Of a stretch of DNA of 64,000 nt, positions 4,614-49,852 are shown piece by piece (the first letter of the stretch is position 1; every line of letters begins with the position of its first letter). The notes beneath the pieces are model-generated. The model had not been told where the DNA came from and ran no database searches. It worked only from the letters and a program-made list of their open reading frames with translations. The DNA is from Cyanobium sp. ATX 6A2 (GTDB lineage Bacteria > Cyanobacteriota > Cyanobacteriia > PCC-6307 > Cyanobiaceae): positions 124,001-188,000 of the forward strand of contig NZ_JAGQCU010000004.1 in NCBI RefSeq assembly GCF_024346355.1, in the 5' to 3' direction. The translations under genes were made by a program, and so were the position numbers.

Positions 4614-4615
4614 GG

Positions 4616-23253: not shown

Positions 23254-23439
23254 TCAGGGGTTGCAGCGAGGGCACTGCCGCAGTTCGTTCTCGAACGTGC
23301 GTGCCAGCTGTGCTTCGGGGGAGTGACGGGCCATCTGGCTCAGCACCAGCAGGCTGCGCAGGCCCAGCCAAACCAGGGCAAGCAGGATCCGGCCCACAGG
23401 GCACCGGGCCTGGCGAGCTCGACCCAGTTGTTTGATCAC
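23254..23439 (-). CDS. Candidate small membrane protein divergent from bicA
   Basis: A 61-codon frame starting at ATG 23439. It has a basic N-terminus (MIKQLGRARQARCPVG), one hydrophobic segment (RILLALVWLGLRSLLVL), then a charged tail ending in RQCPRCNP. The positive-inside layout and terminal CxxC look protein-like, but no family is known and it may be a chance frame. Its start is 36 bases from the bicA start, so both would share a promoter region. Confidence 0.4.
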   Translation of the reverse strand: MIKQLGRARQARCPVGRILLALVWLGLRSLLVLSQMARHSPEAQLARTFENELRQCPRCNP

Positions 23440-23475
23440 GCGGCTAAGGTTCGCCGCCCACCTTCGCCTGTAGCG

Positions 23476-25197
23476 ATGACCACATCATCGGCGCCCCCGC
23501 GGCGCCCGGGTCTGCGGGTGCTGAACCACATCAGCACCAGGAACATCAAGGGAGATCTGTTCGGCGGGGTCACCGCCGCGGTGATCGCCCTGCCCATGGC
23601 CCTGGCCTTCGGGGTGGCCGCCTTCGGTGGAGCTGAGGGTGGTGCCGCAGCCGGCCTCTGGGGTGCGGTGCTGGTGGGTCTGTTCGCCGCCCTGTTCGGG
23701 GGCACGCCCGCCCTGATCTCGGAGCCCACCGGTCCGATGACGGTGGTGATGACCGCGGTGGTGGCGGATCTCAGCTCCCGCGATCCGCAGAACGGCCTGG
23801 CCATGGCCTTCACGGTGGTGATGCTGGCCGGGGTGTTTCAGATCCTCTTCGGGCTGCTGAAGCTGGGCCGCTATGTGACCCAGATGCCCTACACGGTGAT
23901 CTCGGGCTTCATGAGCGGCATCGGCATCATCCTGATCGTGCTGCAGATCGGCCCGTTTCTGGGCCAGGCGATCCCCAGAGGCGGGGTGCTCGGCACCCTC
24001 TCCAGCCTCCCGGCCCTGGTGCAGAACGTCCAGCTCGACGAGGTGGTGCTGGCGGTGATCACCTTGGCGGTTCTCTGGTTCACCCCTCGCCGGGTGCGAA
24101 CCGTTGTTCCGGCTCAGCTGATCGCCCTGGTGCTCGGCACCCTGCTCTCTTTTTCCTTACTCCAGGGCGACGCAGACGGCCTGCGCCGCATCGGCGTGAT
24201 CGCCTCAGGGTTTCCAGAGCTGCAGATCCCCCACTTCCAGCTGCCCCAGCTGCAACTGATGCTGGTTGATGCGGCGGTGCTGGGGATGCTGGGCTGCATC
24301 GACGCCCTGCTCACCTCGGTGATCGCCGACAGCATCACCCGCACCGAGCACAACTCCAACAAGGAGCTCATCGGTCAGGGCCTGGGCAATCTGGTGTCGG
24401 GCCTGTTCGGTGGCCTGCCCGGCGCCGGAGCCACCATGGGCACAGTGGTGAACATCCAGAGCGGCGGCCGCAGCGCCCTCTCCGGTATCTCCCGCGCCCT
24501 GGTGCTGATGCTGGTGATTCTCGCCGGGGCACGGCTGGCGGGTGAGATCCCCCTGGCCGTGCTGGCCGGCATCGCCCTGAAGGTGGGTGTTGACATCATC
24601 GACTGGGGTTTTCTCAGACGCGCCCACCGGATCTCGATCAAGGGTGCCCTGATCATGTATCTGGTGATTGCTCTCACCGTGCTGGTTGACCTGATCGCGG
24701 CCGTGGGCATCGGTGTGTTCATCGCCAACATCCTCACCATCGACAAGATGGGCGAACTGCAGGCCAAGTCGGTGAAATCGGTGAGCACCGGTGATGGTGA
24801 CCTCGATATTCCCGCTGATGACAAAGCCCTGCTCGACCAGGGCAAGGGCCAGGTGCTGCTGTTTCAGCTCAATGGTGCCATGTTGTTCGGTGTGGCCAAG
24901 GCGATCGGCCGCGAACACAATGCCGTCGGCGACTGCAAGGCGGTGATCTTTGATCTCTCCGAAGTGTCCCACCTCGGCGTCACTGCCTCTCTGGCGGTGG
25001 AGAACGCCGTGGAGGAAGCGATTGAAAAGGGCCGGCTGGTGTATGTGGTGGGGGCCACCGGCACCACCAAGCGACGCCTGCAAAATCTCGGTCTTTATGA
25101 GAAGCTGCCGGATGACCACACCAGCATCAGCCGCCATGAGGCCCTGCAGCGGGCCGTCACGGAGATTGCGGCATCGGCCGATGGATCCGCTGTCTGA
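23476..25197 (+). CDS. bicA: SulP-family bicarbonate transporter BicA
   Basis: A 573-residue SulP transporter from ATG 23476. The membrane domain shows GDLFGGVTAAVIALPMALAF, TPALISEPTGPMTVVMTAVV, MPYTVISGFMSGIGIILI and LGCIDALLTSVIADSITRTE, all close to what I know of cyanobacterial BicA. The C-terminal STAS domain starts near residue 455 (VLLFQLNGAMLFGVAKAI, VIFDLSEVSHLGVTASLAVE). BicA is a low-affinity, high-flux, Na+-dependent bicarbonate importer in the cytoplasmic membrane. A TAAGGT element lies at 23445-23450, and a terminator follows. The neighbouring Mrp operon could maintain the Na+ gradient it needs. Confidence 0.9.
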   Translation: MTTSSAPPRRPGLRVLNHISTRNIKGDLFGGVTAAVIALPMALAFGVAAFGGAEGGAAAGLWGAVLVGLFAALFGGTPALISEPTGPMTVVMTAVVADLSSRDPQNGLAMAFTVVMLAGVFQILFGLLKLGRYVTQMPYTVISGFMSGIGIILIVLQIGPFLGQAIPRGGVLGTLSSLPALVQNVQLDEVVLAVITLAVLWFTPRRVRTVVPAQLIALVLGTLLSFSLLQGDADGLRRIGVIASGFPELQIPHFQLPQLQLMLVDAAVLGMLGCIDALLTSVIADSITRTEHNSNKELIGQGLGNLVSGLFGGLPGAGATMGTVVNIQSGGRSALSGISRALVLMLVILAGARLAGEIPLAVLAGIALKVGVDIIDWGFLRRAHRISIKGALIMYLVIALTVLVDLIAAVGIGVFIANILTIDKMGELQAKSVKSVSTGDGDLDIPADDKALLDQGKGQVLLFQLNGAMLFGVAKAIGREHNAVGDCKAVIFDLSEVSHLGVTASLAVENAVEEAIEKGRLVYVVGATGTTKRRLQNLGLYEKLPDDHTSISRHEALQRAVTEIAASADGSAV

Positions 25198-26902: not shown

Positions 26903-28207
26903 TCAGCGGTAGTCCTGGTTCTGCACGGCGTCGATGCAGGCCTCGGGTCTCAGAAAGCGATCCATCTGGGCCTCGAAGAAGTGCCGATTGGCCAGCAGGT
27001 GGTGAGGGTCGGGATCGTCGAGCGGATAGAACAGCGCCGCCCGCAGGGCCTGGATCACCGCCGAGGTGACGTTGACCATCGAGCGCTGGAAGGTGATGCC
27101 CAGCTGCACCAGCTGGTCGGCCTCGCCGCGCTTGTGCTGGCGGTAGAGATCCTGCAGGTAGGGGGGCAGGAAATGCAACATGTCCTGCATCAGCAGGGTG
27201 GGCGGAATCCCCGCTGAGCCCACTGGAAACACATCGGCGTAGAGGATGCCGTAGTGAAAGTCGGCCTGCTTGGCCGGCACCTGGCCGGCCTGGGCGTTGT
27301 AGCTCTTGGTGCCGCGGAAGGGGGAGGTGCGGTAGAACACGGCCTCCACATAGGGCAGGGCGGCCTCATAGAGCCAGGTGAAACCTTCGCCCTTGGGGAT
27401 GATCTCGAACAGCTCACCGCGAATGACCACGTGGTGGTAGATCGGCCGGCCCGCCACTGCGAAGATGCCGTTCACCAGAAACTCCATCGCCTCGGGCACG
27501 GAACTGAGCCTGCCCTCGTCGTAGAGGTCGCTCATCTCGAAGAACACCGGCGCCATCACCTCCCAGAAGAGGCCCAGGTTGCTGCAGAAGCTGAGCTGCT
27601 TCACCTTCTCAAGAAACAGATCCGGGAACAGGCGATGCAGGCCCAGCATCAGCGGATTCCCGCGGAAGTAGGCCCGGATTGCCCGGTCGGCGTTGGTTCG
27701 GTAGGCGTCGCTGTCGAGGTAGTCGTTGAAGCGGCCGCCCATGCCCTGGTGCCAGAACATGGCCTGCATGCAGGCCTCGGCGAACTCCATGTTGATGCGG
27801 TCGTGCCAGAGGTGATGGAGCAGCTTCGGCAGGCGGCTGGTTTCGCCCCGCTCCATGAACGCCAGCAATTCCGGATGGGCCTTCTCACCACCGCGCCAGA
27901 TGCGCAGCTGCGATTGATCACCGGCATAGCTGTTGGGCCGATCGAGATACTCCTGGGGGAGGAAGTATTTGAAGGCCGGCAGCGGCTCGAGGAACACCCG
28001 CTCGGCGATGTAGAGCAGATCGCGCCAGTAGAAATCCATCGGCACGGCATAGGCCTTGTAGATGCCGATGATCTGCTGGAGGTTCTCCGGTGTGTCGGGC
28101 AGCATCGAACCCCCCGCCTCCAGCCGGTGGATCACCTCGGCGTAGCGGTGGGTGGAGGGGGGAATCAGGGGCGCCTGGGTGCGCTCCGAGGCGGCGGTGG
28201 TGGACAT
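26903..28207 (-). CDS. cupA: CO2 hydration protein of NDH-1MS (ChpY/CupA type)
   Basis: A 434-residue soluble protein of the cyanobacterial CO2-hydration family. Features include [60 protein letters not shown] and [20 protein letters not shown]. CupA/CupB carry the site proposed to convert CO2 to bicarbonate, driven by the NDH-1 complex at the thylakoid membrane. I call it the CupA (low-CO2-inducible, NDH-1MS) type because a fasciclin gene follows; CupB operons normally lack it. Its start shares one base with the ndhD3 stop (TGATG). Confidence 0.88.
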
Positions 28208-29730
28208 CAGGCGAGCGGCGGGAGAGAGGGGGCAGGCGCCACCACGGCCACCAGCGCTGCGGGAGCGGCCGGCCGGAGGGCGAGGGCGGCGGTGTCGCGC
28301 TCACTCCAGCCGGTGAGGCTGGTGGGCCAGATGCCGCTGAGCAGCACCAGCAGGCTGAGCACCAGGGCCGGCAGGCGCTCCCCCCAGCCGGTGGCCTGCC
28401 AGTCGGCACGGCCGTTGTCGAGGCGGCCGAAGCCCACCCGGTTGAACAGGCGCACGGCATACACCGCCGTGAAGCCCGAGGCCACCAGGCACACCAGGGT
28501 GGTGCGGGGGAACACGGTCCAGCTGCCCTCGAACACCAGCAGCTCGGCCGGGAAGCCGGCCAGGCCGGGGATGCCGGCGGCGGCCATCAGGGCCAGGAGC
28601 AGCAGGGCGGCGGTGAAGGGCAGGCCGCGGATCGGGTTGAGCAGGCCGGAGAGCTCGGCGATGGCGGTGGTGCCGGTCTTGCGTTCGATCAGGCCCACGC
28701 AGGCGAACAGCAGGGCCACGATCAGGCCGTGGGCGATCACCTGGGCCACCGCCCCCTGCAGGCTCATCGGCGTGGCGGCTGCCAGGGCCAGCACCAGCAG
28801 GCCCATGTGCCCGAGGGAGCTGTAGGCCATCAGCCGGCGGATGTCGGTGGCGGCGATGGCGTTGAGCGCGCCGTACACCGCACTCACGGCCCCGGCGGCG
28901 GCGATCCAGGGCGACCAGGCCGCCCAGACATCCGGCAGCAGGCCCACGCCGAAGCGCAGCAGGCCGTAGGCCCCCAGCTTCGACACCGCACCGCCCAGCA
29001 GCATCACCACCGGGGTGGGTGCCTGGCCGTAGGTGAAGGGCTGCCAGCCGTGCAGGGGCACAACCGGCAGCTTGAGCCCGAAGGCGAGCAGCAGCAGGGC
29101 CAGCACCCAGGCCTGGGCGGCGGCGGGCAGGGGATGGGCCGCCAGGGCGGCATAGCTGAACTCCACCCCGGCCCCAGGCCCTGCGCCTGCAGGCCCCTGG
29201 CCCAGCCAGCCGAAGGCCAGCACCGCCCCCAGCAGGCTCAGCCCCGACACCGCCCCGTAAAGCAGGAAACGGATCGCGGCCCCGGCCCGGCGCTCGCGGC
29301 CCCAGATCGCCACCAGCAGGGTGGTGGGGATCAGCACCAGCTCGAAGGCCAGCACGAACAGCAAGGCGTTGCGGGCCAGAAACGCCCCCACCACCCCCAG
29401 GTTGGTGGCCAGCAGCAGGGGGTAGTAGAGCCGCGGCCGCAGCTGATCGAGCGGCGAGGCCAGCACCGCCATGGCGGTGAGCAGGGCGGTGAGCAGCACC
29501 AGGGGCAGGGACAGTCCATCGAGGCCCAGCTCCAGGTCAAGCCCCAGCCGCGGCAGCCAGCTGAGGCTGAGATCGGCGGGTGGGCGCCTCCAGGCCACCA
29601 GCCCCACCACCAGCTGGGCGAGGGCGGTGAGGGCGGCCAGTCCCCGACCCAGCTGCGGGCGGTCGGCCGGCAGCACGGTGAGCATCAGGCCCGCCGAGAG
29701 GGGAATCAGCAGCAACAGCAGCAACGTCAT
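28207..29730 (-). CDS. ndhD3: NDH-1 subunit D3 (CO2-uptake type)
   Basis: A 507-residue NuoM-like proton-pumping subunit with about fourteen helices. Key stretches are LLFVLAFELVLIPTTLLVAI (conserved glutamate), LKLPVVPLHGWQPFTYGQAP (lysine), DIRRLMAYSSLGHMGLLVLA and GFPAELLVFEG. In cyanobacteria NdhD3/NdhF3 replace NdhD1/F1 in the complex that supports CO2 uptake. It lies 11 bases downstream of ndhF3 and is coupled to cupA. Assignment to the D3 rather than D4 type rests on the fasciclin gene in the operon. Confidence 0.85.
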   Translation of the reverse strand: MTLLLLLLIPLSAGLMLTVLPADRPQLGRGLAALTALAQLVVGLVAWRRPPADLSLSWLPRLGLDLELGLDGLSLPLVLLTALLTAMAVLASPLDQLRPRLYYPLLLATNLGVVGAFLARNALLFVLAFELVLIPTTLLVAIWGRERRAGAAIRFLLYGAVSGLSLLGAVLAFGWLGQGPAGAGPGAGVEFSYAALAAHPLPAAAQAWVLALLLLAFGLKLPVVPLHGWQPFTYGQAPTPVVMLLGGAVSKLGAYGLLRFGVGLLPDVWAAWSPWIAAAGAVSAVYGALNAIAATDIRRLMAYSSLGHMGLLVLALAAATPMSLQGAVAQVIAHGLIVALLFACVGLIERKTGTTAIAELSGLLNPIRGLPFTAALLLLALMAAAGIPGLAGFPAELLVFEGSWTVFPRTTLVCLVASGFTAVYAVRLFNRVGFGRLDNGRADWQATGWGERLPALVLSLLVLLSGIWPTSLTGWSERDTAALALRPAAPAALVAVVAPAPSLPPLA

Positions 29731-29741
29731 GGCGGGACTCC

Positions 29742-31649
29742 TCAGGGCAGACCAGGCAGGGCAAGCGGGAATTCACCGGCGATCAGCCAGGCCGCCATCA
29801 GCAGAATCCCCAGCACCAGGGTGAGGGCATAGGCCTGGGAGCGGCCCGAGGTGGTGAAGCTCAGCCGGCGCGCTCCGGCCAGGGCGGTTGCCCCGGTGCC
29901 GCCGCTGAAGGCATCCACCAGGCGCCTGTCGATCCAGGAGCCGGCGCGGGCCAGGGCCAGCACCAGGGCCACCACGGTGCGTTGGTAGAAGCGCTCGGTC
30001 TGCATGTCCTCAGCCAGCCAGTGCTGCAGGCCCCCCAGGGAGGCTGGCAGCTCGGCCAGACCGTGCGGCCGCAGGTAGAAGAGTGCCGAGAGGCCTCCAC
30101 CCACCAGGGTGGAGGCCAGCAGCGGCCAGGCCAGGGGGCCCCAGCCCGGCAGGGGCGCGAGGGCGAACACGCCATTGCCCACCAGCAGCTGGGGCAGGTG
30201 CAGCACCAGCCCCATCAGCACCGTGGTGGGCAGCACCATCAGCCAGAGCACCTCGGCCGAGCGGGTGGTGAAGGGGGTGGGCCGGCCACCCCAGATCTGG
30301 CCGAACACCCGGATCAGGCCAGCGCTGATCAGGGCGTTGGCCAGCAGCACCACCCCGCCGAGCAGCAGCGGATGGCCGCTGCGGGCGGTGAGGGCCAGCA
30401 GCTCCCGCAGGGCGGCAAAGCCGGTGAACGGCGGCAGGCCCATCAGGCTCACGGCGCCGGCCAGGAACGCCAGGCCCATCAGCGGGCGGCGGCTCCAGAG
30501 GCCGCCCAGCTGGGTGAGGTCCTGGGTGATGTTGCTGATCACCACCGTGCCCACGCTCATCAGCATCAGGGCCATCGGCAGCGGATACACCAGCAGCAGG
30601 TGATCGGCGGCGGCCCTGCCGCCCAGCCCCACCGCCACGAACAGCAGTCCCAGCCAGCTGCTCACCAGAAAGCTGAGGGCCCGTTTCACGTCGATCTGGG
30701 CCAGGGCGATCAGGGAGGCCACCACCGCCGTGGAGCCGCCCACCAACACCAGCACGCTCTGCACGAAGGGGCTCAGCTCCAGCAGCGGCTCCAGCCGCAG
30801 CAGCACCCAGGCCCCGCCGATCACCACCACCGAGTTGCGCAGGATCGTGGAGGGCAGGGGGCTTTCCATCGCCTCATCGAGCCAGAGGTGCAGCGGGATC
30901 TGGGCGCACTTGCCCATCGGTCCGGCGATCAGGGCCAGCAGGATCAGGGTGAAGCCCGGCGGCAGCGGCTGGCCGTTGTTGCTGAGATCAGCCGCCCAGG
31001 CCTGCAGGCCGTTGAAGTTCCAGGTGCCGGTCACGGGCAGCAGGGCGATCAGGCCGGCCAGCAGGATCAGGTCGCCCACCCGCTTGGTGAGGAAGGCGTC
31101 GCGGGCCCCCTTCACCACCAGGGGCTGATTGGTCCAGGTGCCCACGATCAGGTAGGTGCCCACGGTGAGCAGCTCCAGGAGCACATAGCTGAAGAACAGC
31201 GAGTCGGTGAGCACCAGGGCGCAGAGGCCGGCCTCGAACACGCTCAGCGAGCCGAAGAAGCGCGGCCAGCCCCAGTCCATCTCCAGGTAGCCGAAGGCAT
31301 AGATCTGCACCAGCAGGTGCAGCCCTGTGATCACGGCCATGGCGATCAGGGCCGGTTCGGTCACCAGGCCGTCGAAGCCGATGCGCAGGCCGGCGGAGTC
31401 CAGCCAGGTCCAGCTGAAGCTCACCGGCCGGTAGAGGGCCTCCGCCCCGGCGCGGGCGTTGGTGTGCAGGGCGGTGAGGGCCACCAGGCTGTGGCCGAAG
31501 GCCACGGCCACCATCAGCATGTTGAGGTAGCCGCAGGGCCGGGGACCGGTGCGGGAGATCAGGCCGGGCGACCAGGCCAGCGAGGCGACGGCCGCCAGCA
31601 GCGGATAGAGGGGAATCAGCCAGGCCGCCTGGAGCGCAGCGACGGTCAT
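29742..31649 (-). CDS. ndhF3: NDH-1 subunit F3 (CO2-uptake type)
   Basis: A 635-residue NuoL-like subunit. ATG 31649 (MTVAALQAAWLIPLYPLLAA) was chosen; the open frame upstream is not conserved-looking. Signatures are LLELLTVGTYLIVGTWTNQP, GPMGKCAQIPLHLWLDEAME (lysine helix), VKRALSFLVSSWLGLLFVAV and PPFTGFAALRE. The C-terminal part includes the long amphipathic region and a last helix (ALTLVLGILLMAAWLIAGEF). It is the first gene of the ndhF3-ndhD3-cupA-cupS operon, 58 bases after an SDR gene on the same strand. Confidence 0.87.
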   Translation of the reverse strand: MTVAALQAAWLIPLYPLLAAVASLAWSPGLISRTGPRPCGYLNMLMVAVAFGHSLVALTALHTNARAGAEALYRPVSFSWTWLDSAGLRIGFDGLVTEPALIAMAVITGLHLLVQIYAFGYLEMDWGWPRFFGSLSVFEAGLCALVLTDSLFFSYVLLELLTVGTYLIVGTWTNQPLVVKGARDAFLTKRVGDLILLAGLIALLPVTGTWNFNGLQAWAADLSNNGQPLPPGFTLILLALIAGPMGKCAQIPLHLWLDEAMESPLPSTILRNSVVVIGGAWVLLRLEPLLELSPFVQSVLVLVGGSTAVVASLIALAQIDVKRALSFLVSSWLGLLFVAVGLGGRAAADHLLLVYPLPMALMLMSVGTVVISNITQDLTQLGGLWSRRPLMGLAFLAGAVSLMGLPPFTGFAALRELLALTARSGHPLLLGGVVLLANALISAGLIRVFGQIWGGRPTPFTTRSAEVLWLMVLPTTVLMGLVLHLPQLLVGNGVFALAPLPGWGPLAWPLLASTLVGGGLSALFYLRPHGLAELPASLGGLQHWLAEDMQTERFYQRTVVALVLALARAGSWIDRRLVDAFSGGTGATALAGARRLSFTTSGRSQAYALTLVLGILLMAAWLIAGEFPLALPGLP

Positions 31650-31707
31650 CGGCAGAGAGCGGGAGCGGGCACGGGAGAAAGGGGGCCGGACGGCGGGCTG
31701 ACCGTAG

Positions 31708-32400
31708 TCAGGCGGGGGTGCCGCTGGGTTCGGCCAGCCAGGCGGCAAGGCTGCGCGAGGGCTGCTCGGCGCTGCTGGTGATCTCGATGATCCGGCCCAC
31801 CGCAGCCGGATCGGCCAGGGCCTCCACGCACACCCGGGCCACCAGCCGGCGGGGGATGCTGGAGCTGTCCTGCTGGTCGGGGCCGCTGAACACCACCCCC
31901 TCGCGCTCCTGGCCGGGCTCCAGCCCCTCCTCCCGTTCGCTCAGACCGCCGGGGCGGACCACGGTCCAGTCGAGGCCGCTCTGCTCCAGCCAGCGCTCGC
32001 CCACCCGCTTCCACACCAGGATCAGGCCGAACAGGTTGAGGGGATGGATCCAGCGGCCGGCGCACAGGGAGCTCACCAGCACCACGCGCTTCAGGCCCAC
32101 CGCCCGGCAAGCCTCGATCTGGCTGCGCACGCCGAAGGCATCCACCTGCAGGGGTCCGGTGAGATCCACCGACGGGCGGGCACCGGTGGCGATCACCAGG
32201 ACGTCGCAGCCGTTCAGTGCCTCCTGCAGGGCCTCGCTGCGGCCCAGCTCCAGGCGGATCACCTCGGCCCCCGCCAGCCCTTCCGGCAACTCGGATCCGG
32301 GCCGCACCAGGGCGCGCACCGTGTGGCCCTGGCGCAGGGCCTCCTGCACCACCCGCCAGCCGGTCTTGCCGCTGGCGCCGCTCACCGCAATCGTGGTCAT
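31708..32400 (-). CDS. Atypical short-chain dehydrogenase / NAD(P)-binding protein
   Basis: A 230-residue single Rossmann-domain protein. The N-terminal MTTIAVSGASGKTGWRVVQE is a GxxGxxG cofactor motif of the atypical SDR (NmrA/TIC62-like) group. VLVIATGARPSVDLTGP, RVVLVSSLCAGRW and DWTVVRPGGL follow in the expected order. Such proteins in cyanobacteria and plastids are redox sensors or complex-assembly factors; a link to the adjacent CO2-uptake operon is possible from gene order alone. Divergent from the Rieske gene. Confidence 0.8.
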   Translation of the reverse strand: MTTIAVSGASGKTGWRVVQEALRQGHTVRALVRPGSELPEGLAGAEVIRLELGRSEALQEALNGCDVLVIATGARPSVDLTGPLQVDAFGVRSQIEACRAVGLKRVVLVSSLCAGRWIHPLNLFGLILVWKRVGERWLEQSGLDWTVVRPGGLSEREEGLEPGQEREGVVFSGPDQQDSSSIPRRLVARVCVEALADPAAVGRIIEITSSAEQPSRSLAAWLAEPSGTPA

Positions 32401-32484
32401 CCGCCGTCAGCGTCGCAAGCGCTGAACCTACCCACGATGCCGGGCCTGCTGGCGCGCCATCATCCGGCCAGGCACCCCCAGCAC

Positions 32485-33906
32485 ATGGCCCTCCCCAGCG
32501 CGGCTCCCTCCAGCCCAGCACCGGCCACCCCGGCCCCCGCCGGCGCGCCCCAGCTCGAAGACGAGCGCTGGCGGCAGCACTGGCAGCAGCAGTGGTATGC
32601 GGTGGGCTGTGTGAAGGATCTCGATCCCCGCCGCCCCTTTGCCTTCACCCTGCTGGATCACGACCTGGTGATCTGGTGGGACGCCGCCGCCGGACAGTGG
32701 CGGGCCTTTGCCGACGTGTGCCCCCACCGCCTGGTGCCCCTCAGCGAGGGCCGCCTCAACGCCAGCGGCGAGCTGGAGTGCCCGTATCACGGCTGGAGTT
32801 TTGATGGCGAGGGCCGCTGCACCGCCATCCCCCAGGCCCCGGAGGCGGTGGCCGCCACGGCCTGTGCCAGCGGCCGCTCCCGCTGCCGCGCCTACGCCAC
32901 CGCCACGGCCCAGGGCCTGCTGTTCGTGTTCGCCGGTGACGCCGCCGGCGCCGGCCAGGTGCCGCTGCCGCTGGTGCCGCTGCTGGAGGAACCCGGCTGG
33001 CTGGTGCAGGACACCTTCCGCGACCTGCCCATGGATGCCCTCACCCTGCTGGAGAACGTGCTCGATGTGAGCCACGTGCCCTTCACCCACCACCGCACCG
33101 TGGGCCGCCGCGACAATGCCGCCCCGGTGGAGGCCGAGATCACCGGCTCCGGGCCCGGGGGCTTCACCGCCGCCTGGGCGGAGGGACCGCGCCGCGGGAA
33201 GCTCGGCAGCCAGTTCACCACCTTCATGGCGCCGGGCCTGATGTGGCACGACCTCGACGCCAAGGGTTTCGCCCGCTTTCTCACGGTGGTCTACGCCACC
33301 CCCACCCACCGCGGCAGCTGCCGGCTGATCGCCCGCTTTCCCTTCCAGTTCCGCTCGCGCCTGCCGCGGCTTCTGCTTGGGCTGACGCCGCGCTGGCTGC
33401 AGCACATCGGCAACCACACGGTGCTGGAGGACGACCAGGTGTTCCTGCATTGGCAGGAGCGGGTGCTGGCCGAGCGCGGCGGCAGCGACAGCCTCAGCCG
33501 CGCCTGTTTTCTGCCCACCCGCGCCGATGTGTATGTGAAGGCGCTGCACGACTGGATCGTGGGTCACGGCGGCGAACCCTTCCCAGGCCAGCCCCTGCCA
33601 CCCCGCCAGGGCCGGGTGGCGCTGATGGATCGCTGGGAGGCCCACACGCGCCACTGCCGCAGTTGTGCCGCCGCCCATGCCCGCATCCGTCGCTGGCGGC
33701 CGCTGCTGCAGGCGCTGCTGGTGCTGGTGCCCCTGCTGCTGCTGGTGGCGGTATGGATCGGAGGGCTGGCGCCCTCCACCGCCCTCGTGGGATCGGGCCT
33801 GGCGGCGGCGGTGCTGCTGGCGGCGCTGGAGCGCCAGCTGGGCCTCTGGCAGCGGGGCCTGGAGCGGGGCAGCGGCGCACCGCCTCGCAATGCGCTCAGG
33901 GCTTGA
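32485..33906 (+). CDS. Rieske oxygenase, pheophorbide-a-oxygenase-like
   Basis: A 473-residue protein from ATG 32485 (an in-frame ATG at 32437 is an alternative). The Rieske [2Fe-2S] cluster is bound by C79PH81 and C99PYH102 (DVCPHRLVPLSEG, ECPYHGWSF). The mononuclear iron site includes ENVLDVSHVPFTHH. A CxxC (HCRSCAAAH) near residue 395 matches the redox motif of plant PAO/TIC55/PTC52 proteins. Two hydrophobic helices end the chain (ALLVLVPLLLLVAVWIGG, LVGSGLAAAVLLAAL), suggesting membrane attachment. The family acts in chlorophyll breakdown or related ring oxygenation; the substrate here is unknown. Confidence 0.85.
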   Translation: MALPSAAPSSPAPATPAPAGAPQLEDERWRQHWQQQWYAVGCVKDLDPRRPFAFTLLDHDLVIWWDAAAGQWRAFADVCPHRLVPLSEGRLNASGELECPYHGWSFDGEGRCTAIPQAPEAVAATACASGRSRCRAYATATAQGLLFVFAGDAAGAGQVPLPLVPLLEEPGWLVQDTFRDLPMDALTLLENVLDVSHVPFTHHRTVGRRDNAAPVEAEITGSGPGGFTAAWAEGPRRGKLGSQFTTFMAPGLMWHDLDAKGFARFLTVVYATPTHRGSCRLIARFPFQFRSRLPRLLLGLTPRWLQHIGNHTVLEDDQVFLHWQERVLAERGGSDSLSRACFLPTRADVYVKALHDWIVGHGGEPFPGQPLPPRQGRVALMDRWEAHTRHCRSCAAAHARIRRWRPLLQALLVLVPLLLLVAVWIGGLAPSTALVGSGLAAAVLLAALERQLGLWQRGLERGSGAPPRNALRA

Positions 33907-41381: not shown

Positions 41382-41603
41382 TCAGAACTTGCGCAGCTCC
41401 CGGCGCACCTTGCCGGGATCGCCCGAATGGTGATAGTTGAAGATCAGGATCGGCACGGCGATCAGCAGCAGAACGATCGCAGCCACCACGCCGGGGGAGT
41501 GAACCGCGCCCGAGGCACTTCGGCGATGGGAGCCTCCGGCAACCCTTCGCCGGCGCCGCCACGGTGGGGATGGACAGGTGGGTCCCATGAATGGATTCGG
41601 CAT
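41382..41603 (-). CDS. Candidate small membrane protein, 73 residues
   Basis: A basic N-terminus (PWRRRRRVAGGSHRRSASG) precedes one hydrophobic helix (GVVAAIVLLLIAVPILIFNY) and a charged tail ending DPGKVRRELRKF. It starts 7 bases after the stop of the large iron-sulfur/cyclic-nucleotide protein on the same strand and may be its operon partner. No family recognised. Confidence 0.5.
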   Translation of the reverse strand: MPNPFMGPTCPSPPWRRRRRVAGGSHRRSASGAVHSPGVVAAIVLLLIAVPILIFNYHHSGDPGKVRRELRKF

Positions 41604-41610
41604 GGGGAGA

Positions 41611-44385
41611 TCAGCGCGGTGAGCGCATCAGCCGTTGCAGCTGCATGCTCTCCAGTTCCAGCACCCGGCGGGCGAACTCGGGATCACGCTCAAGCACCGC
41701 ATCGAAGGAATCCACCGGTACCGCCAGCACCCGGGTGGCGTCGGCTTCCGCCACGATCGTGCTCTCGGAGGCGCTGTGGGTGAGCACCTGCAGTTCGTCG
41801 AGCACCCGCCCGGGCTCCATCTCCTCCAGCCACGCCCGCTGGCCGTCACGGTGCCGCACCGTGGCCCTGCCCTCGATCAGCAGCAGCAGCTCCCGGCAGG
41901 TGTCACCGGCTTCGGTGATCAGGTCTCCGCAGGCGAACACGCGCAGCTGGGCCCGCTCGCACAGGGCCGCCAGGGTGTCGGCATCACTGCGGCGGAAGAA
42001 ATCGCTGGTGGCCAGAAACACCCGCTTCTCCAGATCCGGGCAGTCCCGCAGGGCCGGGGTGCCCTGCAGCGTCTGCACGGCCCGGGCGGTCTGCGCCAGC
42101 AGGGGCGGAACGTCGCCGCCACCCATCTGGGCCGAACGGGCCCGGGCCCGTTCCGGATCCACACAGGCCGTGAGGAACAGGGCCGCTGCCGCCACGATGG
42201 GGCTGGGGTCAACCATCAGGCTGTCGAGGAAGGCCAGGGTTTCGGCAACGGGCACCTCCAGAGGGCAGGAGGGTGCCTGGCCGCCGGGGCGTCCAAGGGC
42301 CTCACGCACGGCCGGAGACAGGCGGCCTGCCCAGTCGTTCTCCTGAACCAGCTCCGGCAACCCCAGCGGTGCGATGGCCTGCAGACGCTGCACCAGCTTG
42401 GGCACGCACGGATCGTCCTGAAGGGTGGCCAGGGCGTTCAGGATCGCCCGCAGGCTCAGTTCCTTGCGGAGCTTGAGGCGGTCGTCGAGCAGGGCCAGAA
42501 CGGCGGTCTGATCCCGCAGGGCGCCCCGATGCAGGGCCCGGTAGCCGTCTGTGAGCGCCGGCAACCGCTCCAGCAGCAGCTCCAGTTTGTGGATCGCCGC
42601 GGCCCGGGGGGAGAGATCGTGGCGCACGATCTCGTCCTCCTGTGAGGAGATGCCGTACTCGCGGCGCAGGGCCTGCAGCGCCTGGCCATTGGCCCCTGCA
42701 CCGGCCTGGCCGTCGGCGTCATGGAGGCGCTGAACCAGCATCAGCCGCTCCAGCGACTTGCGGTAACCGCTGAGACGGATCTGGTCTTCGAGGCTGCGGC
42801 GGCTGTCGGGATCGAGCAGGTCGGGATCCTCCACCCCCAGTTCTTCGAGCAGGTGGCGGTGCTCGTCGTTGCTGATGCCGAGGGAGAGGCGCATCTGCTT
42901 GAGCACCTCCAGACTGCTGGCGGCGTTGACGAACCCCTCCTCGAGGGCCTCCCGAACGACACCCTTGTAGGCCTCCAAGCGCTTCTGGCCGGTGAAGCCC
43001 GGCAGCACCTTGGCGAGCACATACACCTCTTCGGTTCCCAGGTCGGCCAGGGAGCGGCTGTCGAGATAGCGGCCCACGTCGAGATCCATGCGGGCCAGCT
43101 GCTTGCGGAAGCGCTCGGCCAGATTCTCGCGGCTGTAGAGCGCGGGCGAACGCCCCCAGCCCCGGTAGAGCCAAAGGGTGCTCAGCGCCACCAGGGTCAC
43201 GTCGAAGAGGTACTGAACCCAGAGCGGCAGCAGCAGGAGCAGGGGGCGGCCGGAGAACAGGAAAAAGAAGTTGAACACCAGATAGGTGGCCACCAGGAAC
43301 ACCCGGTGACGGAGACGGTCGCGATCGGGCTCAGCGCCGTGGCGGCGCACCCGACGCCGCAGACCAGCCTCGATCGCCCGGCCCGCCACCACCCCCAGCC
43401 AGGTGCACAGCCCCAGGATCAGGGGCACCGCCACCAGGCGCGGCACGTCGATCACCTGGCCGAACAGGTAGAGGCCCGGACGGAGCAGCAGCTCGAGCTG
43501 GTTGCTCTGGCGCAGCCAGGCCCCGGAGAAGTAGTAGTCCCAGTTGCCCGCGTAGAGGTAGTAGTAGAGGAAGTAACCCACCACCAGCCCCACGTAGCCG
43601 TAGCGCTCGAAGGCGAAGGCAGGGGTGGGGAGGCGGGCCCAGTAGGTGCGTTCGGCGTCGATGTCGATGCAGGGCTGCTGGCAGGCCACACAGGCGCTCT
43701 GCTCGCTGCCATCCGGCTGAACGGTGCGGCACATCGACTGGGTGATGGGCGTGGCGGCCATGTGGGCCCTGCTGCCGAGCAGACCGGAGGGGGTGGAGTA
43801 GATGCTCTGCACCGGCGCCATCGGGCAGAAGTACTGGCACCAGCTCTTACCGCCATAGAGCCAGCCCACGGCCATCGCGCAGGCGATCGTGAACGTGAGC
43901 CAGGCGAACAGCACCAGCCGGTCGGCATTGAAGAAGAGGATGCGGCCGCAGAGGCCCACGAAGAGCCAGCCGAACTGGAGGCGGGAGTAGTGCTTGCCGA
44001 GCCAGGAGTCGGCCGGCACCCGGGCCAGCTGCCAGCGCGTTTCACCGGTCTTCGGATTCACCCGGGCGATCTGGCGCTGCAGCCCCAGGGCCCGGGGGAT
44101 CTGGGAGAGAAACGAGAGCGGGCAGATGCGCCGCCACAGCTCATGGCCGAACACCAGCAGCACGAACACGCCGGCAGGTACCACCAGGCCCCAGAACAGG
44201 GTGGTGGCGAGGGGATAGGGCGTCTCCACCAGGCAGGTGCCCTGCACCGGAACGCACGTGTCCGGCAGCCGCAGCGGGCTCCAGGGGTGGTCGGGCTCGG
44301 TGAACCGCGGCGTGAACGGGTCGTAGAGCAGCGAGGCGATGATCAGCAACCAGCCGGTGGTGAGCCCCCACCGCAGCAGATGCAT
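41611..44385 (-). CDS. NapH/NosR-like iron-sulfur membrane protein fused to cyclic-nucleotide-binding domain
   Basis: A 924-residue protein from ATG 44385 (GTG 44424 possible). Residues 1-430 hold about nine membrane helices and cysteine motifs of the NapH/NosR/RdxA type: RRICPLSFLSQIP, WCQYFCPMAPVQSIYS and CVACQQPCIDID, the last resembling a [4Fe-4S] ferredoxin motif. Residues 450-740 are helical and charged without a known fold. The C-terminal 130 residues form a cyclic-nucleotide-binding domain (VFACGDLITEAGDTCRELLL, DELQVLTHSASESTIVAEAD, VLAVPVDSFDAVL). This suggests a membrane electron-transfer module gated by a nucleotide, which is inference. I know no characterised member. Confidence 0.75.
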   Translation of the reverse strand: MHLLRWGLTTGWLLIIASLLYDPFTPRFTEPDHPWSPLRLPDTCVPVQGTCLVETPYPLATTLFWGLVVPAGVFVLLVFGHELWRRICPLSFLSQIPRALGLQRQIARVNPKTGETRWQLARVPADSWLGKHYSRLQFGWLFVGLCGRILFFNADRLVLFAWLTFTIACAMAVGWLYGGKSWCQYFCPMAPVQSIYSTPSGLLGSRAHMAATPITQSMCRTVQPDGSEQSACVACQQPCIDIDAERTYWARLPTPAFAFERYGYVGLVVGYFLYYYLYAGNWDYYFSGAWLRQSNQLELLLRPGLYLFGQVIDVPRLVAVPLILGLCTWLGVVAGRAIEAGLRRRVRRHGAEPDRDRLRHRVFLVATYLVFNFFFLFSGRPLLLLLPLWVQYLFDVTLVALSTLWLYRGWGRSPALYSRENLAERFRKQLARMDLDVGRYLDSRSLADLGTEEVYVLAKVLPGFTGQKRLEAYKGVVREALEEGFVNAASSLEVLKQMRLSLGISNDEHRHLLEELGVEDPDLLDPDSRRSLEDQIRLSGYRKSLERLMLVQRLHDADGQAGAGANGQALQALRREYGISSQEDEIVRHDLSPRAAAIHKLELLLERLPALTDGYRALHRGALRDQTAVLALLDDRLKLRKELSLRAILNALATLQDDPCVPKLVQRLQAIAPLGLPELVQENDWAGRLSPAVREALGRPGGQAPSCPLEVPVAETLAFLDSLMVDPSPIVAAAALFLTACVDPERARARSAQMGGGDVPPLLAQTARAVQTLQGTPALRDCPDLEKRVFLATSDFFRRSDADTLAALCERAQLRVFACGDLITEAGDTCRELLLLIEGRATVRHRDGQRAWLEEMEPGRVLDELQVLTHSASESTIVAEADATRVLAVPVDSFDAVLERDPEFARRVLELESMQLQRLMRSPR

Positions 44386-44491
44386 GCGCCGTTCCGACAC
44401 CTGAGAGCCCTCGCTGTTGCTCACCTGCGGTGCCGAACCTAGCGGTGGTTGCGGAGGCCGGATGACAGCTGCTGTACCGATCAGTTCGGCA

Positions 44492-45089: not shown

Positions 45090-46541
45090 TCAGCCGATCG
45101 CGGCGAGGCCCCGCCGGTGGATCTCGCGGGCGTGATCGGTCCACACCCCCTGGCCCCAGTAGCGGAAGCAGCTGGTTTCCAGCAGCAGCAGATGGAGCAG
45201 GGCCTCCTGGTAGCTCCGGCTTCCGGTGACGGTGGGATCCTTCGCCACCAGGGGATCGAACCGCTGGTGGAAGCGGGCACTGAGCTCGTTCATCGGCTCG
45301 AGCACGTTGGTGTAGCCCTCCACCCAGCTGAGGTCGTTGGTCCAGGAGGCGCCCTCCATGGAGAAGGAGGAATCGCCGGCCTCCAGATCGGCGATGGCCG
45401 CCGCCACCGCTGCCGGTGTGGGTGCGCTGCCGGTGCGCTGCCACAGCCTGTGCTGCAGCACTGCCTGAATCCGGGGGCAGTCCTGGGATGACACCCCGGC
45501 GGCCTCCAGCAGTTCCAGGTATTCCGTGCCGTTGATGGCCACCGTTGATGGGCTGCCGCCCTGCTCAGCGGCGATGCGCTCATGGGCCTGCATGAACGCC
45601 GGCGGGAACTCGTTCATCATCACGCCGCCGTTCTCGCCATCGGCGATCTGCGACACCAACGGCGGGATGGCGCGTCCAGCCAGCGTCAGCCGGTTGAGCC
45701 CCAGCGCCTCGTAGCAGGGCTGCATCTGGCCCACCAGCTTGGTATCGGAGCCCTGGGTCTTGATCAGCGCCGTGATGCACGCCTCCTCGCCGCTGGAGCT
45801 GCGGGCCACCAGCCGGTTGGGGATGAACAACTGCTCCTGGCTCAGCGCCGAGCCATCGGGGTTCTCCACGCTGTGCTCCTGCACGAGCAGCCAGCGGTAG
45901 CCGCACTCCCTGAGCGCCTGCACCAGGGCAAACAGCGTGTCGGGGTGGTTGGGCAGGTGCATCTCCGGCAGGGAGAAGCCCTTCACCCGCCGCAGGGCCG
46001 CATCACCGAACAGGGCGGAGAACTGGTGCTGCCAGGCCAGGATCTGCAGCTTCAGATCGGGGATCGGCGTGGAGGGCGCCACGGCATGGCCCCAGAACGT
46101 GCCCAGCCACTCCACATGGGGCTCCATGGTGGGATCCGTGGCCAGGAACCGCAGCGCTTCGAGGATGTCGTGGCGGCCCATCTGCTGGAAGCCCCACAAC
46201 AACGTGCCGGAGTAATCGAGCATGATCCGCGGATTGCAGCCCTCGGCGATCAGCTGGGGGATGATGTCCGCCAGGCGCCTGTAGCACTGGGCAAACGGTT
46301 CGGCGTTGTGGTTGTCGCCCTCGCCGGGGTGCTCGAACATGGACTGCAGATGGGAGATCAGCTCCCCATTCGCCCCGGCTGGAATTGTGGGCTGGTGCAT
46401 GTGCAGGGCGCAGGCAAAGCCCGAGCGGATCCGCTCCAGCTGGAGGTTGCTGTGCGGCAGAAAAACGGGCCCTGGCTGCTGCACCAGGGCAAGGATTTCG
46501 GCTTCGCGCCCGGCGATCGGCGGCAGGGGATGTTGACTCAT
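45090..46541 (-). CDS. Glycoside hydrolase family 57-like protein
   Basis: A 483-residue protein from ATG 46541 (MSQHPLPPIAGREAEILALV). GH57-like landmarks are ACALHMHQPTIPAGANGELI near residue 45, PRIMLDYSGTLLWGFQQMGR, FWGHAVAPS and VKGFSLPEMHLPNHPDTLFA, whose acidic residue sits where the nucleophile region falls. GENGGVMMNEFPPAFMQAHE resembles the later catalytic region. Members hydrolyse or rearrange alpha-glucans; the substrate is unknown. It is monocistronic with a convergent neighbour relic. Confidence 0.7.
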   Translation of the reverse strand: MSQHPLPPIAGREAEILALVQQPGPVFLPHSNLQLERIRSGFACALHMHQPTIPAGANGELISHLQSMFEHPGEGDNHNAEPFAQCYRRLADIIPQLIAEGCNPRIMLDYSGTLLWGFQQMGRHDILEALRFLATDPTMEPHVEWLGTFWGHAVAPSTPIPDLKLQILAWQHQFSALFGDAALRRVKGFSLPEMHLPNHPDTLFALVQALRECGYRWLLVQEHSVENPDGSALSQEQLFIPNRLVARSSSGEEACITALIKTQGSDTKLVGQMQPCYEALGLNRLTLAGRAIPPLVSQIADGENGGVMMNEFPPAFMQAHERIAAEQGGSPSTVAINGTEYLELLEAAGVSSQDCPRIQAVLQHRLWQRTGSAPTPAAVAAAIADLEAGDSSFSMEGASWTNDLSWVEGYTNVLEPMNELSARFHQRFDPLVAKDPTVTGSRSYQEALLHLLLLETSCFRYWGQGVWTDHAREIHRRGLAAIG

Positions 46542-46639
46542 GGTTGGGGTATGGCGGCGGTAGCTGCTCAAACGCAAGGGAGAGCGGGCAGAGGAGCGCC
46601 AACCTCTGGCTAAAGTCTGATCAGTGGATCACCTGCTCG

Positions 46640-47286: not shown

Positions 47287-48243
47287 TCAGCCGTTCTGCG
47301 CACTCTGAGGTGCCTCGAACTCTACGGGTATGAGCGCAGTTCTATTGACTCGCAATTGAAAGATGTCGGGCCTTGAGTAATGGCCTACGACATCGAGGCT
47401 CCGCTGTGCAATGCCAACGCGTTCAAGGTCGACTTCTGCGTAGAGTATTCCCACTTCACGCCGCATGGGCCCGGCCACGATCTTCCCGCCGGGCTCGATC
47501 ACCACGGAATCTCCGGGGTTAATCCACTCCTCGGCATCCGGATACAGCTCCGACTGCCCCGGAACGGAGTCGGGAATATCGCCGGCCCGAAAGGCCATGC
47601 CACTTCCCACCACCCAACATCCGCCCTCGCGTGCAATGTGCTGAAGCGTGCCGATCCACTTGTCACCAGAATCATAGGTTGGGGCGATATAGATCTGAAC
47701 CCCCTGCGCGTAAAGCGCGCACCGCGCAAGCGGCATGTAGTTCTCCCAGCAGATGAGCGTACCGATACGACCGCAAGGCGTATCGAGCACCTTCAGGCCT
47801 GAAGCATCGCCGAATCCCCACACCATGCGCTCCGGGTTCGTTGGCATGAGTTTTCGATGGCGATTCAACAGATCGCCGTCTGGCCCGATCACAACAACTG
47901 TGTTGTAGAGCGTGCCGCGGCTGAACTCAGCGTCCCGCTCGTCAATCCCGCAGACCACCGTCACTTTGTGCTTTTTCGCAGCCTCGCGAAGCGGTGTGAG
48001 ATCGTTGCCATCGAGGCTGACGGCGTTTGCGAGAAGCAGCGCATGAAGCTTTTCAGCAAGTGCCATATCTGCACCAGGCCGCAGCCTCCAGATCCAAGCC
48101 GGATATCCCGGGATGTAGGCCTCAGGAAATACCACCAGGCGGGCCTCATTGGAGGCCGCCTCCGCGATCGCGGTGACGGCGTCTGCGATCGTTCTGGAAC
48201 GGTTTAACAGTACTGGTGGTCTTTGAACAACAGCGAGCCGCAA
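47287..48243 (-). CDS. Nitrilase (carbon-nitrogen hydrolase)
   Basis: A 318-residue enzyme starting at TTG 48243, with GGAG eight bases upstream. The Glu-Lys-Cys triad is in VVFPEAYIPGYP, NRHRKLMPTNPERMVWG and GTLICWENYMPLARCALY. These blocks, including the tryptophan after the catalytic cysteine, fit true nitrilases that hydrolyse nitriles to acids and ammonia rather than amidases. The DNA is visibly lower in GC than the flanking core genes, suggesting recent acquisition. It stands alone. Confidence 0.9.
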   Translation of the reverse strand: MRLAVVQRPPVLLNRSRTIADAVTAIAEAASNEARLVVFPEAYIPGYPAWIWRLRPGADMALAEKLHALLLANAVSLDGNDLTPLREAAKKHKVTVVCGIDERDAEFSRGTLYNTVVVIGPDGDLLNRHRKLMPTNPERMVWGFGDASGLKVLDTPCGRIGTLICWENYMPLARCALYAQGVQIYIAPTYDSGDKWIGTLQHIAREGGCWVVGSGMAFRAGDIPDSVPGQSELYPDAEEWINPGDSVVIEPGGKIVAGPMRREVGILYAEVDLERVGIAQRSLDVVGHYSRPDIFQLRVNRTALIPVEFEAPQSAQNG

Positions 48244-48475: not shown

Positions 48476-49297
48476 TCAGTTGTCGATGAACACCGAATCT
48501 GCCGTGCGCACCACCCGTGGATCGGGCTCACCGACGATGTCGTGGTCCTTGTGTTCGTAGTCCAGTGCGTGGAGGACGCTGCGGATGGCGCCGAGACGGG
48601 CCCTCCTCTTCTCATTCGAGTTGATGATCGTCCACGGCGCCACGAGGGTGTCGGTGGCGAGCAGCATCTTGTTGCGAGCCTCGGTGTACTCGTCGTACTT
48701 CGCCACGCTGACCTCATCGATGGGCGACATCTTCCACTGCTTGAGCGGATCCTCGCGCCGGTCTTCGAAGCGCAGCTTCTGTCGGCCCTGCGACACGGTG
48801 AACCACATCTTGAAGACCATCATCCCACTGCTCACGAGTGACTGTTCGAAGGCGGGAACCTGGCGGAGGAACAGGGCGTGCTCCTGGGGTGTGCAGAAGC
48901 CCATCACCTTTTCCACGCCGGCCCGATTATACCACGACCTGTCGAACATCGTGATTTCTCCGGCCGATGGCAGGTGCGGGACGTAGCGCTGGAAGTACCA
49001 CTGCGTCACTTCGGCATCGTTGGGCTTCGCCAGCGCGACATGGTCACTACCGCGAGGGTTCAGGTGTTCGCGGAAGCGCTTGATCGCTCCACCCTTGCCC
49101 GCCGCATCGCGACCTTCGAAGAGGATCACCACGCGCTGTCCGACAGCCTTGATGTGACGCTGCGCCTTGAGCAGTTCAATCTGGAGTGATTCGAGGTCTC
49201 GTTTGTAGTCCTTCTTGTCGATCGCTTCGTCGTAGGGACGATCGTTCTGCATCTCCTCGATCGTCTGGGCAGGCGATGGGGGTTGCTTCTTGCTCAT
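48476..49297 (-). CDS. Polyphosphate kinase 2
   Basis: A 273-residue PPK2-family enzyme from ATG 49297 (MSKKQPPSPAQTIEEMQNDR). The Walker A is VVILFEGRDAAGKGGAIKRF, the Walker B and lid regions are EITMFDRSWYNRAGVEKVMG and EARNKMLLATDTLVAPWTII. Such enzymes transfer phosphate between polyphosphate and nucleoside di- or monophosphates. The frame stays open upstream through a degenerated antitoxin gene, but the start near 49297 matches family length. GC is a little lower than the core, as for the adjacent nitrilase. Confidence 0.9.
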   Translation of the reverse strand: MSKKQPPSPAQTIEEMQNDRPYDEAIDKKDYKRDLESLQIELLKAQRHIKAVGQRVVILFEGRDAAGKGGAIKRFREHLNPRGSDHVALAKPNDAEVTQWYFQRYVPHLPSAGEITMFDRSWYNRAGVEKVMGFCTPQEHALFLRQVPAFEQSLVSSGMMVFKMWFTVSQGRQKLRFEDRREDPLKQWKMSPIDEVSVAKYDEYTEARNKMLLATDTLVAPWTIINSNEKRRARLGAIRSVLHALDYEHKDHDIVGEPDPRVVRTADSVFIDN

Positions 49298-49517
49298 GAG
49301 CGTTGCGATCGTCCGGCTGGCCCCACACCGGTGAGATGGGTAAGCCAGCCGCTTGAACTGGGCGGAGCGGTCCACGCCCTTCAGCCAAGGTCGCTGCGAA
49401 AAGCACACACCACCTCCAGCCCCTCCGCACCTGGCCGAAGGCCAGCGTGGCGGAGCCACGACGCGACCAGCTGCTGCAGCTCTGCCGCCAGCGCCTCGAC
49501 GCCATCCGCTTAGCTCA
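49298..49517. other. Non-coding remnant stretch between ppk2 and higA relic
   Basis: No intact gene. The plus strand at 49449-49512 contains a short fragment resembling the middle of the HNH-type nuclease relics found at 61-63 kb (listed separately). Confidence 0.4.
49449..49512 (+). pseudogene. Short HNH-type nuclease relic (middle segment)
   Basis: The plus strand reads AEPRRDQLLQLCRQRLDAIR, close to EAERDALQQLCRQRLDAFRE at 62940-63005. No start or neighbouring exon-like continuity remains, so this is a scrap only. Similarity is by eye over about 20 residues. Confidence 0.35.
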
Positions 49518-49852
49518 TCAAGGCGGTGAAGCTCCCTCTGGGGATCGAGGCACAAGGAGGATCTCCACATCGCAGCCGAGCACATCGGCGTAGCGGCGGA
49601 GAGTGGACAGTGCGGGCAGGTGCTTGCGGGATCCCTCGAGAGCCGACTGATGGCGCTGCGTGTGGTGCCCATTAGCAGGGCCACCTCCTCCTGGGTGAGA
49701 CTGGCCCGCTTGCGGGCCTCAAGGAGCTGCCTGAGCAGACGGAATTCTACGGCAGCCTCCTGCCGCGCTTCGTTGTAGCCCAGCACCCGATCGAGCCGGG
49801 CGCGTTCGGAAACGCGATCGCGGATGAACGGTTGATAAGGAATGTCAGCCAT
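49518..49852 (-). pseudogene. HigA-type antitoxin, frameshifted
   Basis: ATG 49852 opens an XRE-type protein: AVEFRLLRQLLEARKRASLT, QEEVALLMGTTRSAISRL. After that serine-arginine-leucine the frame changes to low-complexity sequence. An extra TC in CTCTCGAG (about 49637-49642) explains it: removing two bases gives EGSRKHLPALSTLRRYADVL and DVEILLVP to a stop at 49518, the normal antitoxin tail. The unshifted frame then runs by chance into ppk2. It overlaps the toxin gene by 8 bases, the usual higB-higA order. Confidence 0.7.

Follow-up and report, generated by a model that had tools for sequence, protein, structure and literature searches.

A 64,000-nucleotide window of the Cyanobium sp. ATX 6A2 genome (RefSeq assembly GCF_024346355.1, contig NZ_JAGQCU010000004.1, positions 124,001 to 188,000 of the forward strand) carries a gene for a large membrane protein with iron-sulfur-type cysteine motifs and a cyclic-nucleotide-binding (CNB) fold at its C terminus, and the question it raises is what such a protein does. 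The original prediction, made from the letters alone, had read it as a NapH/NosR-like electron-transfer protein gated by a nucleotide. We found that it belongs to an unnamed family, mostly cyanobacterial, with rhizobial relatives on plasmids. From sequence comparison, our tentative reading of these proteins is an [Fe-S]-based redox relay or sensor in the membrane, combined with exchangeable control domains, which in some lineages of the branch that holds the window protein (the window branch) may be tied to carbon uptake; we regard this as possible and short of probable.

The gene is intact on the minus strand, starts with GTG and translates to 937 amino acids. The extra part of a longer open reading frame (ORF) starting with ATG (to 44562) has a non-coding pattern of GC content by codon position (0.65/0.65/0.50), whereas the gene itself, 41611–44424, gives 0.72/0.46/0.89. 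Because the family is widespread and its cysteines are invariant, the gene is not a chance ORF. Its parts and putative ligand sites lie as follows.

41611–44424, minus strand: core gene, a 937-residue membrane protein with Fe-S motifs and a C-terminal CNB-fold domain (translation, Pfam, relatives, codon pattern).
43090–44424, minus strand: membrane core, residues 1–445, eight helices (hydropathy, charge, AlphaFold model).
42040–43089, minus strand: cytoplasmic helical region, residues 446–795 (helices in the model).
41614–42039, minus strand: CNB-fold domain, residues 796–937 (PF00027 and structure matches).
44233–44256, minus strand: C57-x6-C64 hairpin, predicted to face the outer side, periplasm or lumen (conservation; model strands 58–60 and 63–65).
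44119–44145, minus strand: H94 ... C101-P102, the first (reduced) cysteine site (67/67 rows).
43822–43839, minus strand: C196-xxx-C200-P201, the sole CxxxCP (both cysteines in 67/67 rows).
43669–43731, minus strand: C232 ... C245-xx-C248-xxx-C252, cytoplasmic, probable [4Fe-4S] ligands (67/67 rows; cluster type putative).

Seven hydropathy peaks within the first 440 residues, together with a helix at 268–292 from the models, make eight membrane helices; membrane helices had been foreseen correctly, at about nine one too many. Loop charges, read by the positive-inside rule, predict that both ends of the core and the cysteine motifs lie inside and the C57/C64 loop outside. The long helical region seen in the original prediction is borne out by the model, in which the middle of the protein is helical, and so is the C-terminal CNB domain: the Pfam family cNMP_binding (PF00027) matches there at 48.3 bits (cut-off 27.5, 1e-12), and the fold is clear, with many matches among CNB structures (VIA-align Z 13.9, root-mean-square deviation 3.0 over 125 residues). 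AlphaFold gave the core alone a predicted local distance difference test (pLDDT) score of 80.5 and a predicted template modelling (pTM) score of 0.82, and the full-length protein a mean pLDDT of 76.7 and a pTM of 0.52. A full-length fold search filled with CNB-containing matches. For the membrane core, Foldseek returned no match to solved structures at E <= 0.001, PDB sequences searched with a profile gave none at E <= 1, and the best VIA-align Z against solved structures was 4.2; these results say nothing on fold novelty.

The cysteines carry the case for a metal centre. C101, C196, C200, C232, C245, C248 and C252, as well as H94, are invariant in 67/67 diverse rows covering all variants, and all nine cysteines (these seven, C57 and C64) are kept in 116/116 window-type rows, which are the full-length ones out of 130 loci with a match, the remainder having been dropped. 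Conservation of the putative metal-binding cysteines among homologues thus holds. C57 and C64 are present in 63/67 of the cross-variant rows and missing from all three rhizobial ones. The CxxCxxxC motif named in the original prediction exists, as C245/C248/C252; its CxxxCP-type motifs come down to a single one, C196–P201, since the other site has CP alone (C101-P102). Exactly one CxxxCP is present in every one of 194 core ORFs, duplicates among them. The Fer4_5 family (PF12801) scores 17.1 bits on the window protein, under its curated cut-off of 22, which is passed by the relatives at loci L121 (23.4), L143 (24.7), L203 (22.4) and L122 (22.1), the other scanned ones being below it or unlisted. 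Together, the eight ligand-type residues (H94, C101, C196, C200, C232, C245, C248 and C252) would hold one or two clusters.

How far does the family extend? Relatives of the window protein share 44–85% identity with it and most are full-length. The titles are all cyanobacterial among the best 80 of 192 relatives in a genome scan, and 172/291 genomes of the class have a match, some rows being the CNB domain only; within the window's own taxonomic family, many small genomes are without one. Among 72,556 plasmid records, 36 have a match: 25 from Rhizobium, seven from Leptolyngbya, two from Agrobacterium and one each from Synechocystis and Kovacikia. The plasmid-borne members in cyanobacteria and rhizobia (L144, L145, L146, L141, L142, L143) suggest mobility. 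A further group of the family (L211–L218, L223), at about 30–45% identity, occurs in the window's own genus and family. The spread that the original prediction proposed to survey is therefore wide, mostly cyanobacterial, with an extension to rhizobial plasmids. Its view that the protein is uncharacterised agrees with our results: with the tools used we found no characterised family, no NCBIfam model passed its cut-off among the cores scanned, and no title listed in the literature search describes the family, a search that most subscription papers lay outside.

In a midpoint-rooted FastTree tree of 182 cores, 117 fall in the window branch (support 0.93) and 62 in a sister branch with weak support (0.32); the other three are rhizobial. 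The same core is attached to different control modules. The window protein has a CNB domain; by Pfam, the core is joined to FHA and CNB domains in L113–L117 and L191–L193, to an EF-hand pair in L120, L121 and L203, and to no recognised module in L118, L119, L124 and L205, while among the rhizobial cores L141 and L142 have an FHA domain and L143 no module. A reductase gene was detected adjacent to 51/62 sister-branch, 2/3 rhizobial and 0/117 window-branch cores, counts that are biased in that many sister loci were fetched for a nearby reductase match and some window-branch loci had only 1.5 kb of flank. A fairer count comes from the matches listed, among which 43 of 45 short cores (43–49% identity) are followed within 1.5 kb and on the same strand by a gene for an FHA-flavin-[2Fe-2S] reductase; it was missed at G202:C108 and at G240:C160, which sits where its contig ends. 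FHA, FAD_binding_6 and NAD_binding_1 domains were found in six of six partner genes scanned and Fer2 in five of six, and the FHA signature GR..SRxH occurs in 49/53 adjacent reductases (the exceptions are L141, L142, L145 and L131). The single rhizobial reductase scanned, that of L142, is without FHA, whereas the L142 core has it.

Further genes join these loci. In 28 of the 45 short-core/reductase loci that were fetched, in part for their reductase, the gene immediately upstream, in the same orientation, belongs to a Ser/Thr kinase cluster, whose identity was checked by Pfam in L119 and L128. Six of the eight loci with FHA and CNB domains (L113, L115, L116, L191, L192 and L193, all with a canonical CNB cassette) have a divergently adjacent cyclase gene, which was not found beside L114 or L117; the L113 cyclase was Pfam-checked and the other five are 72–92% identical to it. 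Two of the three rhizobial loci include a gene for a cytochrome c peroxidase, which in L142 is CCP_MauG by Pfam. Where the core comes with both kinase and reductase, the FHA domain may recognise phosphorylated threonines in the core tail and so dock the reductase, an idea for which the FHA signature and the gene order are the main grounds. The tail motif T[IVL][AVILPG][KRP] was rejected as a marker: it occurs in 38/45 last-70-residue tails (shuffled mean 3.3, maximum 10), but it does not discriminate, since a control stretch 90–160 residues from the end of the same 45 short cores with a reductase has it in 31/45. The narrower [TS]xAxT[IV] is found in 19/28 tails with an upstream kinase (shuffled mean 0.3, maximum 3) against 3/17 without, in tails that are related sequences and with a motif chosen after inspection of them. 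An RTX-type calcium-binding gene cluster (two members Pfam-checked) also lies near the sister-branch operon in 19/66 fetched loci, and RTX-type or CHRD-like genes (CHRD below the Pfam cut-off) occur near sister-type operons in L164, L131, L124, L128, L179, L180 and others, and in Rhizobium (L143). A conserved protein of about 460 residues, of the cluster of L151:825-2309, is present in 16/66 loci, had no Pfam match in the one case scanned, and is encoded by a gene that adjoins a PAS-domain gene, divergent to the kinase-core-reductase operon.

In several lineages, the neighbourhood of the window branch points to inorganic-carbon uptake, a link that is suggestive, not firm, because the counts are weaker by genus. 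The queries for the flanks, at thresholds of 50% identity and E 1e-20, were CmpA-D, ChpXY, CupS, SbtA and a SulP/BicA-like protein; CupS and BicA are the names that we take the neighbour genes to deserve. Inorganic-carbon uptake genes (cmpABCD, cupA-cupS, sbtA, BicA-like) were found at 11/80 genome-scan loci (742 kb of flank) and 11/40 class loci (566 kb; the 40 rows of the class that score best once the window's own is set aside), against 1/65 sister-branch and rhizobial loci (L186, BicA-like; 746 kb). By locus, Fisher p versus the sister loci was 0.012 for the scan and 8e-5 for the class set; grouped by genus or title name, the scan gave 11/50 groups versus 1/32 (p 0.024; strictly 10/50, p 0.044). 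The cmp genes or pieces of them occur in L016, L046, L061, L066, L067, L075, L081 and L262, and seven class loci, all from a single genus, have the order ChpXY-CupS-core. SbtA occurs in L032/L256 (65%), L043 (54%) and L061, and a BicA-like gene in L036; L130, outside both counted sets, has a divergent cmpABC. L016 and L046 also have a ChpXY homologue, at distances of 1.7 and 4.2 kb respectively from the core gene.

In some of these loci the genes are tightly packed. In L016 and L046 the core's first in-frame ATG falls within cmpD, by 23 and 20 bases respectively, where a later ATG (6025 and 6016) would remove the overlap; cmpD is separated from the nearest listed core start by 97 bases in L066, 292 in L075 and 179 in L081, and in L229, L232 and L230 about 90 bases lie between cupS and the core start. 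Pfam checks of the Sbt_1, ChpXY and Fasciclin identities covered one gene apiece. The neighbouring ABC genes had first been read as nrtABCD, and the L075 genes even pass the NCBIfam nitrate models ntrB and ntrCD; this nitrate link was dropped because 5/5 binding proteins tested match CmpA far better than NrtA (629/431, 532/390, 630/442, 725/411 and 699/429 bits). In L130, a DUF362 gene (4058-5023) stands directly downstream of the window-branch core.

How might a redox protein serve carbon uptake? Reductant would enter the core from the cytosol, in the sister branch as NAD(P)H electrons by way of the FHA-flavin reductase and in the window branch perhaps from ferredoxin. Electrons might leave the core to quinone or to the outer side, or the cluster might merely report redox state. 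Reduction of the cluster, with the C-terminal domain as its readout or gate, would then activate or drive inorganic-carbon uptake when photosynthesis supplies electrons. A bolder form, which we think unlikely as a whole, is a redox switch by which photosynthetic electron flow activates bicarbonate and CO2 uptake: in the light, reduced ferredoxin would charge the [4Fe-4S] clusters in the membrane, the cytoplasmic part would release or energise BCT1, SbtA, BicA and NDH-1MS, and the sister core would have been rewired as a kinase-, cyclic AMP- or calcium-controlled NAD(P)H path. Were it true, the switch would be a candidate for what activates these transporters in the light, alongside phosphorylation or upstream of it. 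Since the core recurs in some lineages beside these transporters and NDH-1MS, a membrane redox protein so close to cmpD or cupS offers a candidate, open to direct test, for the link between electron flow and transporter activity, with a possible use in carbon-uptake engineering. Independently of carbon, the family appears to be a modular, regulated electron-transfer system, combining kinase/FHA reductase, cyclase/CNB and EF-hand forms.

Several observations weigh against the carbon-linked redox reading. The genome-scan and class sets share genomes, so that their counts are not additive, and L033, L259 and L261 rest solely on a 72-residue cmpD-like fragment; without these three, Fisher p by locus is 0.023 for the scan and 6e-4 for the class set, and by group it is 0.044 and 0.32. 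By genus, the class contrast is 4/27 versus 1/32 (p 0.17, not significant; strictly 3/27, p 0.32), and 7 of the 11 class hits come from one genus with a cup operon. The examined flanks of 69/80 scan and 29/40 class loci hold no carbon-uptake gene, the window's nearest CO2-uptake cluster genes are 10–13 kb from the core gene, and in the sister branch the same core comes with no tie to carbon uptake. Ferredoxin as the window-branch donor is a guess, because no reductase was detected beside the 117 cores, some with only 1.5 kb of flank. The ligand residues could bind another metal, and the cysteine loop is poorly modelled, with residues 224–235 and 239–255 below pLDDT 50, so cluster geometry is unreadable from the models. 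Finally, light reactivation of SbtA, BicA and BCT1 is ascribed to phosphorylation, not to a redox protein, in a recent review (PMC13249358).

The reading that survives best beside ours is a general membrane electron-transfer protein, which would take electrons from ferredoxin or NAD(P)H and deliver them to quinone or an outer-side acceptor, with the carbon genes there by coincidence or hitch-hiking in a few lineages; we find this conceivable, if doubtful. The same core in rhizobia, where in 2/3 loci its neighbours include genes for a reductase and a cytochrome c peroxidase, argues for it, as do the reductase neighbours of 43/45 short cores in the sister branch, the many window-branch loci (most of them) with no carbon gene in their flanks, and the weak genus-level contrast of the class set. 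It accounts poorly for four kinds of carbon-uptake gene recurring across cyanobacteria as against one of 65 sister loci with a similar total flank, and for the tight packing with cmpD or cupS in the eight loci measured.

Alternatively, the protein could be a redox sensor only, in which cluster state reshapes the cytoplasmic helical and CNB-fold part in contact with transporters or NDH-1MS and no net electron transfer occurs. The neighbouring uptake systems are driven by ATP, sodium or NDH-1, so a shared regulator would fit them better than a shared electron donor, and the CNB fold has been kept as a module despite its non-canonical cassette; yet a reductase gene accompanies the core in the sister branch, a pairing suggestive of a route for electrons, and we consider a pure sensor improbable. 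An analogue of NADPH oxidase, with NAD(P)H, flavin and Fe-S centres passing electrons outward to oxygen or iron under calcium or phosphorylation control, would suit the reductase partner, the EF-hand, the FHA/kinase control and the RTX-type cluster in 19/66 fetched loci, but it is highly unlikely given that outer-side cofactor motifs are missing (no CxxCH in the window protein; no flavin mononucleotide (FMN) motif in 194 cores) and that C57/C64 are absent from rhizobial cores.

The gating by a nucleotide claimed in the original prediction turns on one short element of the CNB domain.

41752–41799, minus strand: degenerate phosphate-binding cassette, D876–V891, with S886 in place of the canonical arginine (cassette alignment).

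The cassette arginine contacts the cyclic phosphate and is needed for binding. The window cassette reads DE..SEST (D876-E877 ... S886) as against the canonical GE..R[ST]A, and the claim of gating is not borne out for this protein, which lacks the phosphate-binding arginine and has Asp for Gly. The cassette was scored on 134 aligned rows, some from duplicate genomes, of which two gapped ones were dropped; 13 of the resulting 132 have the arginine and 119 are without it. The canonical form is present in 12 of the 13, all in the sister branch and none in the window branch, and the thirteenth, L129, belongs to the window branch and has DE..RPGK. Gating by a nucleotide is thus unlikely for the window protein, the arginine being missing from its CNB domain, and cyclic-nucleotide-gated electron transfer as first proposed deserves very little credence: the CNB fold is there (PF00027 and the structure match), four PF00211 cyclase matches occur in the same genome, and the sister branch has canonical CNB domains, six adjoining a cyclase gene, but S886 and the Asp stand in the window protein itself and the 12 canonical domains all lie outside its branch.

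We return to the carbon-linked redox reading with the surroundings of the gene.

41382–41603, minus strand: 73-residue ORF named in the original prediction, not conserved and probably not part of the system.
26903–28207, minus strand: ChpXY (CO2 hydration, Cup-type) gene, PF10216 at 517 bits, 13.4 kb from the core gene.

The small ORF does lie 7 bases downstream of the core gene and has a hydrophobic stretch. As a partner gene for a small membrane protein it did not hold up: tblastn against 132 loci found no homologue but itself below E 0.1 (next best 0.36), it is present in 0/12 other genomes of the genus, and its codon pattern is weak (GC by codon position 0.66/0.57/0.74). The ChpXY gene and two NADH-dehydrogenase-type antiporter genes stand in a row at 26903–31748, by content a CO2-uptake NDH-1 cluster; the antiporter gene at 29742–31748 is 9.9 kb from the core gene. 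Sbt_1 has no match in the window's own genome, where the best cmpC-like matches are on other contigs. A gene for a Rieske and PaO-domain oxygenase (32044–33906) lies near the CO2-uptake cluster, and the window further holds genes for a SulP/STAS permease (23323–25197), a GH57-type protein (45090–46577), a nitrilase-superfamily protein resembling Nit6803 but below the Nit6803 cut-off (47287–48243) and a PPK2 polyphosphate kinase (48476–49852).

How does the core compare with known systems? With the NapH/NosR/RdhC (PceC) module, whose features we take from PMC5928378, it has membrane helices, CxxxCP and further cluster cysteines in common; that module has two CX3CP motifs where the core family has one, NosR and RdhC have an outer-side FMN-binding motif that the core family is without ([ST]G[AS]Tx[ST] occurs neither in the window protein nor in the first 500 residues of any of 194 cores), and the core protein has eight helices and a large cytoplasmic control part. 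The NapH/NosR-like label thus stands as a likeness in helices, CxxxCP and Fe-S motifs, and we rejected membership: no NCBIfam NapH/NosR model matched the window protein at E <= 0.1, the CxxxCP is single and the FMN motif is missing. For NapH, PMC5928378 relates that a similar membrane module is proposed to draw electrons from the quinol pool. CNB proteins such as CRP, HCN and PKG share their fold with the window protein and have a phosphate-binding arginine that it, and nearly all of its branch, does not. SbtB, as described in PMC13249358, exerts common control over SbtA, BicA and BCT1 with nucleotide and redox input; the likeness is one of possible role only, SbtB being a soluble PII-like protein and the core protein a membrane protein. 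The sister-branch partner has the same domains in the same order as the FAD_binding_6-NAD_binding_1-Fer2 reductases GbcB, NADH oxidoreductase PRK10684 and BenC, although the two partner reductases scanned fell below every NCBIfam cut-off among the matches listed; compared with these, the cyanobacterial partner reductases add an N-terminal FHA domain, and their gene is paired with the membrane core.

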